Assembly (NCBI GenBank): GCA_021162685.1
Contig: JAGGYF010000015.1
Location: 1-49,951 of the forward strand
Source of the DNA: Candidatus Iainarchaeum sp.
GTDB lineage: Archaea > B1Sed10-29 > WALL01
Reading direction: 5' to 3'
Length of the DNA: 49,951 bases
Shown: one piece after another, positions 17,201-29,707 of the stretch
Layout of the letters: each line of letters opens with the position of its first letter
Position numbering within the stretch: position 1 is the first letter of the stretch
Translations under genes and position numbers: made by a program
Notes under the pieces: generated by a model
The model's database searches: none
What the model saw: the letters and a program-made list of their open reading frames with translations, nothing else
What the model was told of the DNA's origin: nothing

Positions 17201-17345
17201 GAATGTAAAGCCACCTCCAAACCCGCCTCCTTGAAGGCAGGTGAAGTGAATCGCCTTTCATAGTCATCCCGTAATGTTATGTTATTCCCACTATATAAAT
17301 GTTTTTGCACGAAGTATTTTATGCTCCAAAAAACTAAAAGAAAGC

Positions 17346-19682
17346 ATGAAACAAGCACTCCTCTGGAAACCATTGGAGAATAAAACAGTGCAGTGTAACC
17401 TCTGTAATAGGCACTGCATTATACCAGACGGAAAACGAGGGCTTTGCAGAGTAAGGGAAAACCGCGACGGCGTTTTGTATGCAATGACATATGCAAAGCC
17501 ATGCTCAATTGCAATTGATCCAATAGAGAAAAAACCATTGTTCCATTTCCTTCCTGGTACTTCTTCTCTATCAGTAGCAACAGTTGGTTGCAACTTTTTC
17601 TGTAAGCATTGTTTTGTACCAGAAACGTTCGTTATTACAAAAGATGGGGCACACACAATAGAGGAATTATTTAAAAAAGAAGACATCCACGTTCTAACAA
17701 AATCAAATGAGCTACATAGGGTCACAAAGCGATTTAAACATCCCTATTCTGGAAAAATCCTAAAAATAAAGGCAGCATTTCTACCTGAGGTCTTGTGTAC
17801 ACCTGACCACACGTTTTTTGCTACCACTGAGCCAAAGGATGGAATATCTGAGGTTGAAGCTAGAGACTTAACCAAACAACATTTCCTTGTTGTTCCAAGA
17901 AAACGCCCAACGAGTACAATGCCAATTATTGATGCCCGCACAATCCTCTCAAAATTTGAAACTAGAAGTTTCCAGGTAAAGAGAAAGAGACTAACTTCTC
18001 AGATTTTAGAGAAAATGATCAATCTAAAGGAAGAAGGGAAAACATCAAGAGAGATAGCATCTTGTTTGGGTTTCCATCCTACCTATATCAGGAAAATATT
18101 TTCCATTTTGAAACACCATGGAAAGGAAAGACTACTAACACGTACCTTTGAAACCAGTCTTGTTTTTGGTGAACGCATCCGATTTAAAAATGAGAAAGGT
18201 GTAGGCATACCTAAAGAAGTAAAACTTGACAAAGACCTAGCATATCTTTTCGGTATGTACTGTGCAGAAGGCAGCGTCTCCCGACATCCTTCCCGACCAA
18301 ATTCTTTGCTTCTTTGTTTCTCGTTTGGAAAGCATGAAAAGAAACTTGTAGACAAAACAAGTTTATTAATAGAAAAGGTATTTGGGATAAAACCCAAAAT
18401 CGGGATAACTAAAACCACATTGCAGGTTAGGGTGTCTAGCTCCTCGCTTGCTGCGTTCTTTGGCGTACTTTGTGGTATGAAGAGCCAAAATAAAAAAGTT
18501 CCAGAACCTCTCTTCTGCTCTCCAAAGCGCGTGATAGGCGCATTTTTGAAAGGATATTTTGATGGGGACGGCTGTTATAAGAAAAAATACGTTGATGCAG
18601 TTTCTGTTTCAAAAAAACTTATTATGGGGATATGCGAACTCCTTATCATGCAAGGCGTGCTACCTGGCTTTTACGAGCATATACCAAGAAAAGAAAGGCA
18701 AATCTGTGGAAGAAAGGTACATGTGAAACCAGAATACATAGTCAGATTTTCATCAGATTTTGATTTTGAAAAAGGCATCTGGAGAAGGAGGAGACATAAA
18801 AAATACCACTATAAAGAAACCGACAAATACTTTTTCGTTCCAATCAGAAAGATGTCGGAGCAACATTTTGAAGGATATGTATACAATTTAGAGGTAGAAA
18901 ACGACCCAACATACACTGCAAATTTTGTAGCGGTCCACAATTGCCAAAATTGGGGAATATCGCAAGCAAGTCCAGAAGATTTTTTGACAGAAGAAGTACT
19001 TCCAAAAGAGCTCGTTTCTATTGCTAAGAAAAACAACTGTAAAAGCATTGCCTATACATACACAGAGCCAACAATCTTTTTTGAGTACGCGTTTGATACA
19101 TCTAACCTAGCGCATGAAAGCAACATAAAGAATGTTTATGTAACTAATGGATACATGACTGAGGACATGTTAGATATGTACAAAAGCTTAGATGCGGCAA
19201 ATGTTGATATAAAAGGGGACGAGCGGTTCTATAAAGAGGTATGTGGAAACGTTGAGATGGAAAAAATCCTAGAGAATATAAAATACATGAGAAAAAAGGA
19301 CATCCATGTTGAGATAACAAACCTAATTATTCCAGGATACAATGATGACAAGGATTCTATAACACGCATAGCACAGTTCTGCAAGGATACTGATCCAGAC
19401 ATGCCTCTGCACTTCACCGCATTCTACCCAGCATATAAAATGTTAAACGTTCCTCCAACAAAGCGCGAGGTATTAGTAAAAGCCAGAGAAATGGCTCTAG
19501 ACATTGGCGTAAGATATGTATACTGCGGAAATACCTACCCTGGTGACCCCTATGAGAATACCTATTGTCCAAATTGCGGCCATCTGCTCATAAAGAGGCA
19601 TGGTTTTTCTGTTTTAAGTATAGATATGAATGGGGATAGGTGTCCAAGCTGTGGTATGAAAATACCTATTGTTCTTGAATAA
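17346..19682 (+). CDS. AmmeMemoRadiSam-type radical SAM enzyme interrupted by an intein
   Basis: Exteins: QCNLCNRHCIIPDGKRGLCRVREN...PLFHFLPGTSSLSVATVGCNFFCKH / CQNWGISQASPEDFLTEE...YTEPTIFFEYAFDTSNLAHE. ATG at 17346 preferred over 17274. Confidence 0.92.
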   Translation: MKQALLWKPLENKTVQCNLCNRHCIIPDGKRGLCRVRENRDGVLYAMTYAKPCSIAIDPIEKKPLFHFLPGTSSLSVATVGCNFFCKHCFVPETFVITKDGAHTIEELFKKEDIHVLTKSNELHRVTKRFKHPYSGKILKIKAAFLPEVLCTPDHTFFATTEPKDGISEVEARDLTKQHFLVVPRKRPTSTMPIIDARTILSKFETRSFQVKRKRLTSQILEKMINLKEEGKTSREIASCLGFHPTYIRKIFSILKHHGKERLLTRTFETSLVFGERIRFKNEKGVGIPKEVKLDKDLAYLFGMYCAEGSVSRHPSRPNSLLLCFSFGKHEKKLVDKTSLLIEKVFGIKPKIGITKTTLQVRVSSSSLAAFFGVLCGMKSQNKKVPEPLFCSPKRVIGAFLKGYFDGDGCYKKKYVDAVSVSKKLIMGICELLIMQGVLPGFYEHIPRKERQICGRKVHVKPEYIVRFSSDFDFEKGIWRRRRHKKYHYKETDKYFFVPIRKMSEQHFEGYVYNLEVENDPTYTANFVAVHNCQNWGISQASPEDFLTEEVLPKELVSIAKKNNCKSIAYTYTEPTIFFEYAFDTSNLAHESNIKNVYVTNGYMTEDMLDMYKSLDAANVDIKGDERFYKEVCGNVEMEKILENIKYMRKKDIHVEITNLIIPGYNDDKDSITRIAQFCKDTDPDMPLHFTAFYPAYKMLNVPPTKREVLVKAREMALDIGVRYVYCGNTYPGDPYENTYCPNCGHLLIKRHGFSVLSIDMNGDRCPSCGMKIPIVLE
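17610..18941 (+). other. Intein, 444 aa, with LAGLIDADG-type endonuclease and HTH-like segment
   Basis: Begins CFVPETFVITKDGAHTIEEL, block B-like EVLCTPDHTFFA, LAGLIDADG-like DLAYLFGMYCAEGS and AFLKGYFDGDGC, ends YTANFVAVHN followed by Cys+1. Confidence 0.95.
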
Positions 19683-24971: not shown

Positions 24972-25735
24972 CAGTTCTTGCATTGTTTTTGATATCTTTT
25001 GGTATTGGGTATGTTGTTCTTTCTGGGTCACCAAGCGAGCCATTAAAGATTGTCTCTTTTGATGTAGAGCCACAGCCCTCATCCATTGGTTGGGTGACTA
25101 TAACAATAGAAACGAATAAGCCAGCAAACCTAACTGTTTTTGTTGGAGAGAAGATGGCAGAACAATATAGGGTTGAGAATAACACGTATGTTTTCAGATA
25201 TTTTGTGTCACCTTATGAGGAGGACGGATTAAAGCAGATTATAGTTACAGGTGAGCTGTACAATGATAGTTTTGGATTGGTTGTGAATAAAACCGAAACA
25301 ATTGTTACTGTTAGGGGCATTGCATTCTATTCAAACAAAGGAAAATTTGTTGTTAAGGATAGAGTATACTTTTTCACAGAACTTGACCCAGGAAGGACTG
25401 AGAGGAATAAGAAAATCATAGAGGAGTTTACACCTTTCCTATCTAACCTTGCAAAGGCATACAATGTGACATTCTATGCTGTTGAGGCGGATGAAGAGAA
25501 GTGGTTAAGCTGCTATGATTCAAATAATACTGTTGTTGATGTACAAGAATGTGAAAATATAAGCCAAAGCAATCCGAGTATTATCTTAAAACTTCCAGTT
25601 TATCCAACATCACAGGTTTTTGTTGGGAATAATACAATAGAGGTACAGCCAAGTATAGAGGAAATAGGGAAGACATTAGCAGCAGTCTATACGTTTATTC
25701 CTAAGCCAACTAATATAACTGTTCCAGAACAGTAG
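24944..25735 (+). CDS. Membrane-anchored extracellular protein of unknown function
   Basis: N-terminal TM (IKNIIAVLALFLISFGIGYVVLSG) followed by a beta-rich region with N-x-S/T sites. Confidence 0.6.
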   Translation: MDTRIKNIIAVLALFLISFGIGYVVLSGSPSEPLKIVSFDVEPQPSSIGWVTITIETNKPANLTVFVGEKMAEQYRVENNTYVFRYFVSPYEEDGLKQIIVTGELYNDSFGLVVNKTETIVTVRGIAFYSNKGKFVVKDRVYFFTELDPGRTERNKKIIEEFTPFLSNLAKAYNVTFYAVEADEEKWLSCYDSNNTVVDVQECENISQSNPSIILKLPVYPTSQVFVGNNTIEVQPSIEEIGKTLAAVYTFIPKPTNITVPEQ

Positions 25736-26807
25736 TTGCATAGCATCCCTTTGGCAGAGAAAACCTGACTTTTACATAATCTTCTCCTTTCTCAATGATC
25801 TCAAAGTCGTTGATCTCAATATATAGGGGCCTGCGCATGCCTTTGCTGCTCAATTCGGGCATACCACGGATTTTAAAATCATCCAAGGTTAGCCACTCCT
25901 CCTCTAAAATCTTTTGCTCAATCTCCCCTTGTATGCCCTCAGCAAGTTTCATTTCATAGCCATATATAGGGCCTGTTGGGACGCCATTCTCTAAGATATC
26001 CCCTGGCTTCTTGTCCAAACCGATCTTCATGCGCTCTTCAAGTACCTTGTTGAATAGATAGCTCTGATAGGCGTGTACAAACATTATCAAAAGTTTTCTT
26101 GGGAGTTTTCTTAATGCACCAACATAGTCATTTGGATGTTGTGACAGATGAGACAATAGTGTTCTTTCATGTTTCAAATGCTTTGGAAAATAATCTAAAG
26201 CGCTTTTGAAGTTCTGTTCTTTCTCCAGCCTCTTTCTGGCCTCTCTATCCTCCTCCTTTTCTGTTTCAAACCACTTCCATAGATAAAGTTCAACAGCTTC
26301 TTTGTAGTGTTCGTTTACTATGGCTTTTCCTACGAGGTGGGTTATGGGCCTATATTTTCCAAAGCGTTGTTCTCCAAAGAAATTTGGGATCTTCTTTGGG
26401 ATTTTTATGTCAGTTACATCTCTGATTGTTATTGTGAATCTGTTGCCTTTAAGGTCTCCAAGGTTTATTCTTTTGGTTGAGTAGTATAGTGGTTTGAACA
26501 CCATGTCTTTGATGTGCAATCTTTCAAGCTGTTCCTTTTCTATGTTCCAGAGGCTCATAATCTGTGTTGTCCATGCCTTCCTATCCTTTGTACCTGCATA
26601 CCCTATCCGCTTCTGCGAGATATGTAATGTTTTACAGATCTTCTTAGCTGCCTGGATTGTATCCCAATTCTTTTTCTCAAGCACAAAGATTAGTTGGTCT
26701 CCTGAACCTTTTTCCCACTTTTCTTTTTTTCCAACTTCATATATTGTGCCATCTAACCCAATTTCTTCAACAATAAAATCCTCAGGTTTTTGTTTTATCC
26801 TCATCAT
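25710..26807 (-). CDS. truD: tRNA pseudouridine(13) synthase TruD
   Basis: KRIGYAGTKDRKAWTTQ; NFFGEQRFGKYRPITHLVGKAI; MRRPLYIEINDFEI. Confidence 0.95.
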   Translation of the reverse strand: MMRIKQKPEDFIVEEIGLDGTIYEVGKKEKWEKGSGDQLIFVLEKKNWDTIQAAKKICKTLHISQKRIGYAGTKDRKAWTTQIMSLWNIEKEQLERLHIKDMVFKPLYYSTKRINLGDLKGNRFTITIRDVTDIKIPKKIPNFFGEQRFGKYRPITHLVGKAIVNEHYKEAVELYLWKWFETEKEEDREARKRLEKEQNFKSALDYFPKHLKHERTLLSHLSQHPNDYVGALRKLPRKLLIMFVHAYQSYLFNKVLEERMKIGLDKKPGDILENGVPTGPIYGYEMKLAEGIQGEIEQKILEEEWLTLDDFKIRGMPELSSKGMRRPLYIEINDFEIIEKGEDYVKVRFSLPKGCYATTVLEQLY

Positions 26808-29707
26808 CTAAACCTCAAAATAGCACCAATACCTCCAAATCCTCTGAAAAATTGTTCTCCTTCTGGTGTGTCTGTTGAAATGATCTCTACCTTTGTCCCT
26901 ACCATCTCAGCAAGTTCGCTTAGATCTTCAACAATATCCTTTTCTTCAGTTATATTCATGAGGACGCCGCACTTTTCACATTTTTCCTGTTTTGGTTTGC
27001 TTCTAACACTCTTTTGGACTTCATACCCACAATGCGGACATTTTAAAGTTACCCTCTTCCATTCAAGCTCTTCTGATAAGAGGAGAGTATCAACTTTTCC
27101 TTCAAGTAATGCTTGTCTTACCTGTTTTTCACCATATGTTGCTAAGCCGCCAGTGGATGCCTCCTTCAAGAATTTGTTTACAAGCTGTTTTTCTTTTATT
27201 ATGTCTAGGTCCTTCATTATCTCTCCGGCTTTCTGCATCATCTCCCGGATGCCAAATTCATCTGTGTAACTAGTATCAATTGTGCCTATTATCTTCTGTT
27301 TTACTTTTGCATTCAGGTAATCTGCATTGAGGAACGAATTTTTTGTGGGGCCAGGGCCACCAATGATTACTCCTTTAATCTTTTCATCTGAAAATGTTTT
27401 ATTTGCAAGCTCTCCAACCTTTTTGAACCATTCATGTGCAGCAATCTCTATCAAACGCTCAAAGCGCACTGAACTGTTGTGTAAGATGAAATTGTTTGCC
27501 ACAAAACATTCAGTTTCAGGGACAGTTAAGTCATAGAATACTGCATTTAGGTATGTTTTGTCTATGTGTTTTATTTCTGCTTGGATTACATCTGCATGAT
27601 ACACATCCCAGAGCAGACGTAGCAGGTGTGCACCAGTTGTCAGCATTTCTTTTTGTTTATTCATTAGCACGTTTTTCACGCTTGAAATACGCTCAGGATT
27701 CTTGTCAAGACCTTTTTCTATTCTATATATAGGGTAAACACTCAATCCTAGTTCTTCAGCAACTTCCTTCATTGTGAGTCTGAGACGTTTTCTAAACGTT
27801 CTCAAGTTTTGGCTTTTTGCGTTTTCTATTTCCTTGAGTCTTTTTTCAACAGGTTTTATTATTACTCTTCTGAACACATTAAAACTCATCTTTCTTTCGT
27901 CCCTGAAAAAGTTTGTTGAAGTGGCAAAGTCCTCTGTATTCATCTTAAGTTTTTTTACCAAATTTAACATTTGCTTGCCACTAACAGGAATCTGATTTGT
28001 GTTTGTACTCAACTTTCCATATATTCTACCCAACTTTTTCATCTTTTTTTCTGAGGAGAAACCTATATATCTTCTGAAATTCATTAGCGATTCTGAGTCG
28101 CATATTTCAAGTGTGAACTGGTGAGATTCTTTAAATCCTCTGCCTCCTTTTGAGATTTTTTTTCGTACAGAGGCAATTATTCCAAATCTGAGCAGTAACA
28201 TCTGTAGCTGTTTAATAAACTTCTCAGCAACCATTGTAAGAGATACACGATTACTGGTTACATAACCTTCAGCATCAAACACCCCTCTTATAAATGCAGC
28301 CACCTCTTCATTTTTTGCAATCATTATGCTTTTGGGAACCACTAGATTGTGGCTCGGGTAAAAAACCTCTCCGAACAAGAGATCAATCGTCTTTACTAGT
28401 TCTTTTCCGTAGAATGCTAGCCGATAACATCCTCTCCTTCTTCGTTTGTCTATTGAGACAGATACCCCAAACAGTAACTTGATTAATTTCATATATTTGC
28501 GAAGAAGATTAATATCACTATCGCACAAACAGATCCTATACTCTTCCTTATATCCGTCTCCTGATATGTAGCCAAGCAGCTGAGCCAATTCTTTCGTTAA
28601 TGTTTTTGGGAATCTAAAAGCAGGAGTTTTTTTCATGAATTTTTGCGAGAACGCTTTTTTGTCAACACCATATAATTCAATTAATTCCATTATTTTATCA
28701 TGGCTTATTTTACCATTGTTTGTCTCAAATTTAGATATGGTTGCTTGTGCAACTCCTAATATTTTTGCCACTTCTTGCTGGGATAGCCCTCTTTCTCTGC
28801 GCTTGTTTGTTAGGTAGTTAATACCCTGTTTTGTTGGATATTCTACATGTGGAATGTCTATGTTTAGATGTACCTCTCTCCCTCTTACGGGGCTGCATTT
28901 TGCCACTAGAATTTGGTTTCCAGGTTTGAGGTCCTCTGCGTACTTCACTCCCATACCACAGGAATCCGGGACAAAAAACAGATGTTCTGGGGTAACTATA
29001 ATTTCAAGCGTAGGATATTTTGTTTTGATGACATATGCACGTCTCCTTTTTCTTGAGAATACGTGGGAGCAATTAGCAATCTTTGTTTTGTAATTGGAAT
29101 GACTTAGAATAGCATCTCCTCTTTGAACGTTCTTTATTTCTGTAATAATTCCGTTTCCAAGCTGTATAAGAGAGTCCTCATGTACGCATTGCCCGCCCGC
29201 CCTATGTTTTCCTGGCACTTGTGATGTCATGCTTCTTACAATTTCTATACGTTTGCCTTTCAGTATGGCAATTGTTGCCTCTCTTCTATCAACTGTCAGT
29301 AAACCATATGCCTCTTTTGGTTCAAGCATCTCAAGTAATGGTTCCAGGAAAAATGTAGAGTCACATCTATATGTCTGAATAGGAACAGGTTCTGGTGGCT
29401 CTAGTTTGAATAACTCAATCTTGTCATTTATGTTTCCAGCGAATAACACCAAGCCATTTTCAGGAGGTTTTCTGTAGGCTTTTAGCGCATTTAACAACCG
29501 TTCAATTGCAGCAGTCACATTCTTTCTTGTTTGTTTGCTCTTTATATTCATTGCTTGGCCAGCTTCTTCTCTAAGTTTATTAGTCACCTCTGAGATCTGA
29601 TAGTTTGGGGGTATGTATATGCTAATGAGTTCAGTACCCTGACCTCTAAGTTTTGCCAATTCTTTTACTATCTTTTTAAACTCATAATTTACTCTTGAAT
29701 TCATCAT
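26804..29707 (-). CDS. prf1: Peptide chain release factor aRF1, interrupted by an intein at GGQ
   Basis: Exteins: ELISIYIPPNYQISEVTNKLREE...VPGKHRAGGQ / SSVRFERLIEIAAHEWFKKVGE...LKCPHCGYEVQKSV. Spliced length 396 aa. Confidence 0.96.
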   Translation of the reverse strand: MMNSRVNYEFKKIVKELAKLRGQGTELISIYIPPNYQISEVTNKLREEAGQAMNIKSKQTRKNVTAAIERLLNALKAYRKPPENGLVLFAGNINDKIELFKLEPPEPVPIQTYRCDSTFFLEPLLEMLEPKEAYGLLTVDRREATIAILKGKRIEIVRSMTSQVPGKHRAGGQCVHEDSLIQLGNGIITEIKNVQRGDAILSHSNYKTKIANCSHVFSRKRRRAYVIKTKYPTLEIIVTPEHLFFVPDSCGMGVKYAEDLKPGNQILVAKCSPVRGREVHLNIDIPHVEYPTKQGINYLTNKRRERGLSQQEVAKILGVAQATISKFETNNGKISHDKIMELIELYGVDKKAFSQKFMKKTPAFRFPKTLTKELAQLLGYISGDGYKEEYRICLCDSDINLLRKYMKLIKLLFGVSVSIDKRRRRGCYRLAFYGKELVKTIDLLFGEVFYPSHNLVVPKSIMIAKNEEVAAFIRGVFDAEGYVTSNRVSLTMVAEKFIKQLQMLLLRFGIIASVRKKISKGGRGFKESHQFTLEICDSESLMNFRRYIGFSSEKKMKKLGRIYGKLSTNTNQIPVSGKQMLNLVKKLKMNTEDFATSTNFFRDERKMSFNVFRRVIIKPVEKRLKEIENAKSQNLRTFRKRLRLTMKEVAEELGLSVYPIYRIEKGLDKNPERISSVKNVLMNKQKEMLTTGAHLLRLLWDVYHADVIQAEIKHIDKTYLNAVFYDLTVPETECFVANNFILHNSSVRFERLIEIAAHEWFKKVGELANKTFSDEKIKGVIIGGPGPTKNSFLNADYLNAKVKQKIIGTIDTSYTDEFGIREMMQKAGEIMKDLDIIKEKQLVNKFLKEASTGGLATYGEKQVRQALLEGKVDTLLLSEELEWKRVTLKCPHCGYEVQKSVRSKPKQEKCEKCGVLMNITEEKDIVEDLSELAEMVGTKVEIISTDTPEGEQFFRGFGGIGAILRFR
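27476..29188 (-). other. Intein, 571 aa, with LAGLIDADG endonuclease and two XRE-like HTH segments
   Basis: Begins CVHEDSLIQLGNGIITEIKN, LEIIVTPEHLFFVPD block B-like, LAQLLGYISGDGY and AAFIRGVFDAEGYV, ends ECFVANNFILHN before Ser+1. HTHs: RRERGLSQQEVAKILGVAQATISKFE and RKRLRLTMKEVAEELGLSVYPIYRIE. Confidence 0.96.

Follow-up and report, generated by a model that had tools for sequence, protein, structure and literature searches.

The window, a stretch of 49,951 nucleotides from the archaeon Candidatus Iainarchaeum sp. (contig JAGGYF010000015.1 of assembly GCA_021162685.1), carries on its minus strand the gene prf1, which encodes the archaeal class-1 release factor aRF1 as an intein-containing precursor. 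The gene is a single uninterrupted open reading frame (ORF) of 967 residues, running from 29707 to 26804. By junction reading and Pfam, its N-extein (residues 1-173; 29189-29707) ends in PGKHRAGGQ, with the catalytic GGQ codons at 29189-29197, and its C-extein (residues 745-967; 26807-27475) begins with a serine encoded at 27473-27475. Between them lies an intein of 571 residues (residues 174-744 of the precursor; 27476-29188). The junctions read KHRAGGQ/CVHEDS...FILHN/SSVRFERL, which puts the insertion exactly between GGQ and Ser, the Gln being the -1 and the Ser the +1 residue. A first-pass annotation had placed the intein directly after GGQ, and we reproduced its coordinates and junctions to the base, along with the TGA stop of prf1 at 26804-26806.

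Both exteins matched the equivalog family TIGR03676 (aRF1/eRF1) with 517.8 bits against a cut-off of 234.7 (E 1.7e-155), which excludes a chance match. Across the 967 residues Pfam found eRF1_1, eRF1_2 (in two pieces), eRF1_3, Intein_splicing and two matches each to LAGLIDADG_3 and HTH_3, in agreement with the LAGLIDADG motifs and the two XRE-like helix-turn-helix (HTH) segments of the earlier annotation. Joining of the exteins yields an aRF1 of 396 residues with eRF1 domains 1-3, GGQ and the NIKS motif (within NIKSKQTRKNV); its join, KHRAGGQ-SSVRFERL, is the one previously predicted and is identical to that of relatives whose site is empty. The source genome (G000 in our comparisons), a draft assembly of 1.1 Mb in 45 contigs that is 98.4% complete, contains one aRF1 gene. 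Its sole other eRF1-domain gene, on contig 38, is a pelota-like one, so prf1 is the only class-1 release factor found in the genome, as the annotation had held.

The same site is occupied in six other DPANN archaea. In the class to which the window's genome belongs, 5 of the 18 aRF1 genes carry an interruption, always at one profile position, namely those of G000, Diapherotrites LH_S9 (G007), Dive96_bin3.446 (G009), DPANN RIFCSPHIGHO2_02_FULL_47_15 (G011) and NC_groundwater_107 (G016), and all five inteins sit precisely as GGQ/C...HN/S. Two Woesearchaeota (L105 and L118) also carry homologous inteins at GGQ/S. We scanned GTDB r220, with each species represented by one genome, for the pattern PxKHxxGGQ followed by a Cys codon, a search that detects solely Cys1 alleles after PxKHxxGGQ. 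It recovered the four class relatives and both Woesearchaeota; of 88 matches in genome contigs these six archaeal ones were real, most others being chance matches in bacterial DNA. Among 371 genomes of the phylum of the Woesearchaeota, only L105 and L118 showed the pattern of an occupied site. A small check of 34 genomes of one phylum for aRF1 motifs of the KT/KS type gave three matches, all due to chance, and no intein. We rejected a viral origin or carrier of the intein: two viral contigs with the junction pattern held chance frames of 35-47 residues, and five viral contigs and six phage records shared just a generic LAGLIDADG stretch with it.

The six other inteins are homologous to that of the window over their whole length, with 28-44% identity to it. 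A profile built from the seven scored 467-743 bits on aRF1 inteins and at most 170 bits on inteins elsewhere, a gap which argues that the aRF1 inteins form one allelic family. As GGQ/S is occupied in seven genomes from at least two phylum-level lineages, the allele is a recurrent one. That the insert might be an artefact of assembly or binning, or a broken pseudogene, is a thought prompted by the draft state of the genome; with the same junction in seven separate assemblies, every copy in frame and free of stops, and with prf1 the sole aRF1 gene of a nearly complete genome, this explanation is hardly credible.

The architecture of the insert is that of a homing intein. In the order of translation, and by Pfam, alignment and model, it consists of the N-terminal part of a Hint splicing domain (intein residues 1-118; 28835-29188), an XRE-type HTH of five helices (HTH1; residues 120-184; 28637-28831), a LAGLIDADG homing endonuclease domain (residues 194-394; 28007-28609), a second HTH (HTH2; residues 462-491; 27716-27805) and the C-terminal Hint part with block F/G (residues 534-571; 27476-27589), all on the minus strand. 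The Pfam match of HTH1 is strong; that of HTH2 is weaker, yet its helices appear in the model. Each of the two LAGLIDADG helices provides one catalytic Asp by alignment, D211 in motif 1 (GYISGDG; 28553-28573) and D305 in motif 2 (FDAEG; 28265-28279). Although the seven aRF1 inteins share just 27-44% identity pairwise, the residues expected to carry out splicing are invariant: Cys1, the block-B His (H69 of T66-P-E-H69 in the window), the terminal His-Asn (His570-Asn571) and the +1 Ser are present in all seven, with the block-B Thr replaced by Ser in both Woesearchaeota. The block-F Asp is likewise kept in the window intein (D553).

An AlphaFold2 model computed from the seven-row alignment reached a mean predicted local distance difference test (pLDDT) score of 92.3. 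It aligned along its entire length with the TliVMA intein of Thermococcus litoralis (VMA-b site; PDB 7qss/7qsu; Z 32.5, 391 residues, root-mean-square deviation (rmsd) 3.1), which is both its best structural match and its best PDB sequence match (E 3e-12). Like the window intein, TliVMA combines Hint, a LAGLIDADG endonuclease and an HTH-like accessory domain; it differs in its host, where it interrupts the P-loop of the V-type ATPase A subunit, and shares only 22% identity, and in the window intein an additional HTH separates the endonuclease from the N-terminal Hint part. The archaeal inteins PI-TkoII (2cw7; Z 30.7), found in DNA polymerase, and PI-PfuI (1dq3; Z 25.9), found in ribonucleotide reductase, likewise join a LAGLIDADG endonuclease to additional domains that contact DNA, but these domains differ from those of the window intein. 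The accessory domain of PI-TkoII is HTH-like (PMC8966425). The Hint part of the model matched the NpuDnaB intein (Z 20.2, rmsd 1.5 over 134 residues), and its middle aligned with I-DmoI (Z 17.8) and I-Tsp061I over residues 194-394. The PDB match list, taken up by whole-length matches, names no XRE protein and for that reason has no bearing on the fold of the HTHs.

We conclude that the aRF1 insert is very probably a class-1, LAGLIDADG-type homing intein at a conserved site of prf1, aRF1 GGQ/S. Splicing, endonuclease cleavage, the role of the HTHs and transfer between lineages are what we infer from its sequence and those of its relatives. The precursor would fold, and Cys1 would attack the bond of Gln(-1) in GGQ; transfer of the chain to the invariant Ser(+1) and cyclisation of Asn571 would then ligate the exteins as GGQ-S, giving active aRF1 and a free intein. 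The latter would act as a homing endonuclease, its HTH domains probably adding DNA contacts around the GGQ codons, and would cut empty prf1 alleles, whose repair would copy the occupied one. GGQ/S would suit such an element because GGQ-S tolerates almost no change in the protein, which keeps the DNA fairly conserved as well, because Ser can act as the +1 nucleophile, and because prf1 is essential and present in one copy, so that imprecise loss of the intein would kill the cell. In the coding DNA around GGQ third positions vary, and conservation at the protein level suffices for a target across lineages.

Occupancy on the aRF1 tree (37 sequences, intein left out) changes at least six times, five of the changes being forced by well supported branches, and occupied sites cluster no more than shuffled labels. 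Empty sites were found in the nearest relatives, among them G001-G004 of the window's own family and G006, which stands next to the occupied G009 on the tree and has nearly the same flanks. Patchy occupancy of this kind, with empty close relatives, is as expected for a homing element.

Other observations weigh against this reading. Block-F His, which aids Asn cyclisation, is absent from all seven inteins when compared by eye with the usual block-F pattern (E560 in the window; E, K, Q or N across the seven), which may affect the rate of splicing; the residue is common in class-1 inteins, though to our knowledge not universal and thus not strictly defining. Identities of inteins and exteins correlate (r = 0.83, for pairs that are not independent), which makes old residence with losses a rival to be taken seriously for some of the history. 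The intein tree, moreover, gives no resolved branching within the class, and for this reason we dropped the dating of the invasion by trees. According to that rival, an ancestor within DPANN took up the intein in prf1; the element was then inherited vertically and frequently lost, and now splices but no longer moves, its endonuclease being inactive in most carriers. The grouping of the Woesearchaeota inteins, which parallels that of their exteins, and the decayed endonuclease of one carrier (G007) speak for it as the correlation does. However, both LAGLIDADG aspartates are retained in six of the seven alleles, and an occupied G009 beside an empty G006, together with 2 matching genomes among the 371, would demand very many losses. 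We therefore hold it possible, though rather unlikely.

The HTH domains vary among the alleles. HTH1 occurs in six of the seven inteins and HTH2 only in G000 and G009. The G007 intein has wholly lost HTH1 and keeps a decayed remnant of HTH2; its LAGLIDADG motif 1 reads GYITGNG rather than GY..GDG, the first catalytic Asp having become Asn, and all its splicing residues (Cys1, TPEH, HN and Ser+1) are retained. This single case would fit decay of the homing module in an intein that still splices, and the coordinated decay of HTHs and endonuclease ties the former to homing. In related genomes, the inteins of three other proteins likewise show an HTH_3 match ahead of the endonuclease: an ABC ATPase, a T2SSE-type ATPase and, with a weak match, MCM. 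In TliVMA, the HTH-like accessory domain alters target choice and cut position of the endonuclease (PMC8966425). With this precedent, the decay in G007 and the presence of HTHs in inteins at unrelated sites, the HTHs are best read as homing accessories.

One might instead suppose that the free intein regulates transcription of prf1 or its neighbours through its HTHs, in the manner of WhiA, which combines an HTH with a LAGLIDADG fold. The XRE-type HTH has a convincing Pfam score and WhiA is among the Foldseek matches of the model; yet similar HTHs precede the endonuclease in the ATPase and MCM inteins just mentioned, the catalytic aspartates are retained, unlike in a pure regulator, and the HTH disappears along with endonuclease decay. 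Such a regulator is thus highly improbable. HTH-like segments between Hint and LAGLIDADG are seen in inteins of other archaea (L171 in a LolD-type ABC ATPase, L174 in a T2SSE-type ATPase, L172 in MCM and L181 in SMC), which suggests that such a module may be common, though little described.

GGQ is the catalytic hallmark that class-1 release factors universally share. As the break falls directly at this motif, the precursor should be inactive; its inactivity is likely, and reliance of translation termination on excision of the intein would follow from it. To this extent the dependence of the sole class-1 release factor on splicing, put forward in the first-pass annotation, is upheld. The annotation had gone further and suggested a feedback loop, in that termination of the prf1 message itself would depend on splicing. 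We rejected feedback through the prf1 stop codon as unsupported: occupied prf1 genes end in TGA, TGA, TAA, TAG and TGA, prf1 is a single open frame with no internal stop or frameshift that could serve as a recoding site sensing the release factor, and HTHs are found at unrelated sites and lost with endonuclease decay. With its 223 residues, the C-extein would also give the intein room to clear the ribosome and splice while the stop codon is still ahead, which would weaken such a loop.

A broader version holds that conditional splicing, governed by stress, redox state or DNA binding, sets the level of active aRF1 and hence termination; the prf1 stop might then provide feedback. The expected inactivity of the precursor would allow it, conditional splicing is known in other inteins such as that of P. 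horikoshii RadA (reviewed in PMC5874633), and bacterial and mimivirus release-factor genes are autoregulated by recoding (PMC3521657). Against it stand the differing stop codons and the open frame; moreover, most relatives manage without the intein and no sequence feature hints at conditionality. We consider this switch quite improbable, and its stricter form, a domesticated intein whose conditional splicing at GGQ gates termination throughout the cell, very improbable. The bacterial prfB frameshift and the double recoding of mimivirus eRF1 resemble the window's prf1 in that the release factor requires an unusual step for its production; in those genes the step is translational recoding with known autoregulation (PMC3521657), whereas in prf1 it would be protein splicing, with no sign of regulation.

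Our literature search, which covered subscription papers only partly, found no published intein of aRF1, eRF1 or another release factor. No aRF1 intein is known to us from InBase, nor any other intein at a GGQ motif. The doubt voiced earlier that the site is widely cited agrees with this, but the site is not unique, being shared by seven genomes. Inteins as a rule interrupt essential proteins at their catalytic motifs, and the source genome has at least eight: two in MCM and one each in a HerA-type ATPase, DNA ligase, CDC48, RadA, a radical SAM enzyme and aRF1. GGQ/S looks like a new insertion site, and hence a new allele, for an ordinary kind of mobile intein. To specialists in translation and inteins it offers a pleasing addition to the known sites, but no new mechanism. 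Should the intein splice, every termination event in these small archaea would depend on a protein-splicing step, and prf1 would be an essential gene, present in one copy, in which to study dependence on an intein. The seven alleles, which have both HTHs, one HTH, or none together with a mutated endonuclease, form a natural series for testing the role of HTHs in homing.

The inteins of the source genome outside the window are at loci L150, L151, L152, L153 and L154 (contigs 41, 6, 26, 38 and 44); the one in DNA ligase lies directly after KYDGMR of the adenylation site. Within the window a second intein (17274-19682, plus strand) splits the cluster-binding motif of a radical SAM protein, presumably AmmeMemoRadiSam-like, as CNFFCKH/C...HN/CQNW, and contains LAGLIDADG and an HTH-like stretch. 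A scan for sigma-70 promoters and terminators yielded no more than in shuffled sequence, its model being one for sigma-70, with archaeal promoters outside its reach. The stop of prf1 is followed directly by a second TGA (26801-26803), and this tandem TGA TGA (26801-26806, minus strand) overlaps, within 26801-26807, the start (ATGATG) of the next ORF (25710-26807, minus strand; ATGA overlap), which, judged from its sequence, would encode a TruD-like pseudouridine synthase. TGA TGA also ends prf1 of the occupied G009, and the empty prf1 of G003 ends in TAA TGA.

Finally, two aRF1 genes, L024 (G015:C87:6147-7328) and L027 (G018:C55:3041-4228), which belong to separate genera of a single family within the window's class, have GGW (codon TGG) where GGQ is otherwise universal: SKHTKGGWSQRRF. 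Neither draft genome, G015 or G018, yielded a second aRF1. It would be remarkable for a release factor to lack the catalytic Gln; the alternative is that termination differs in these archaea.
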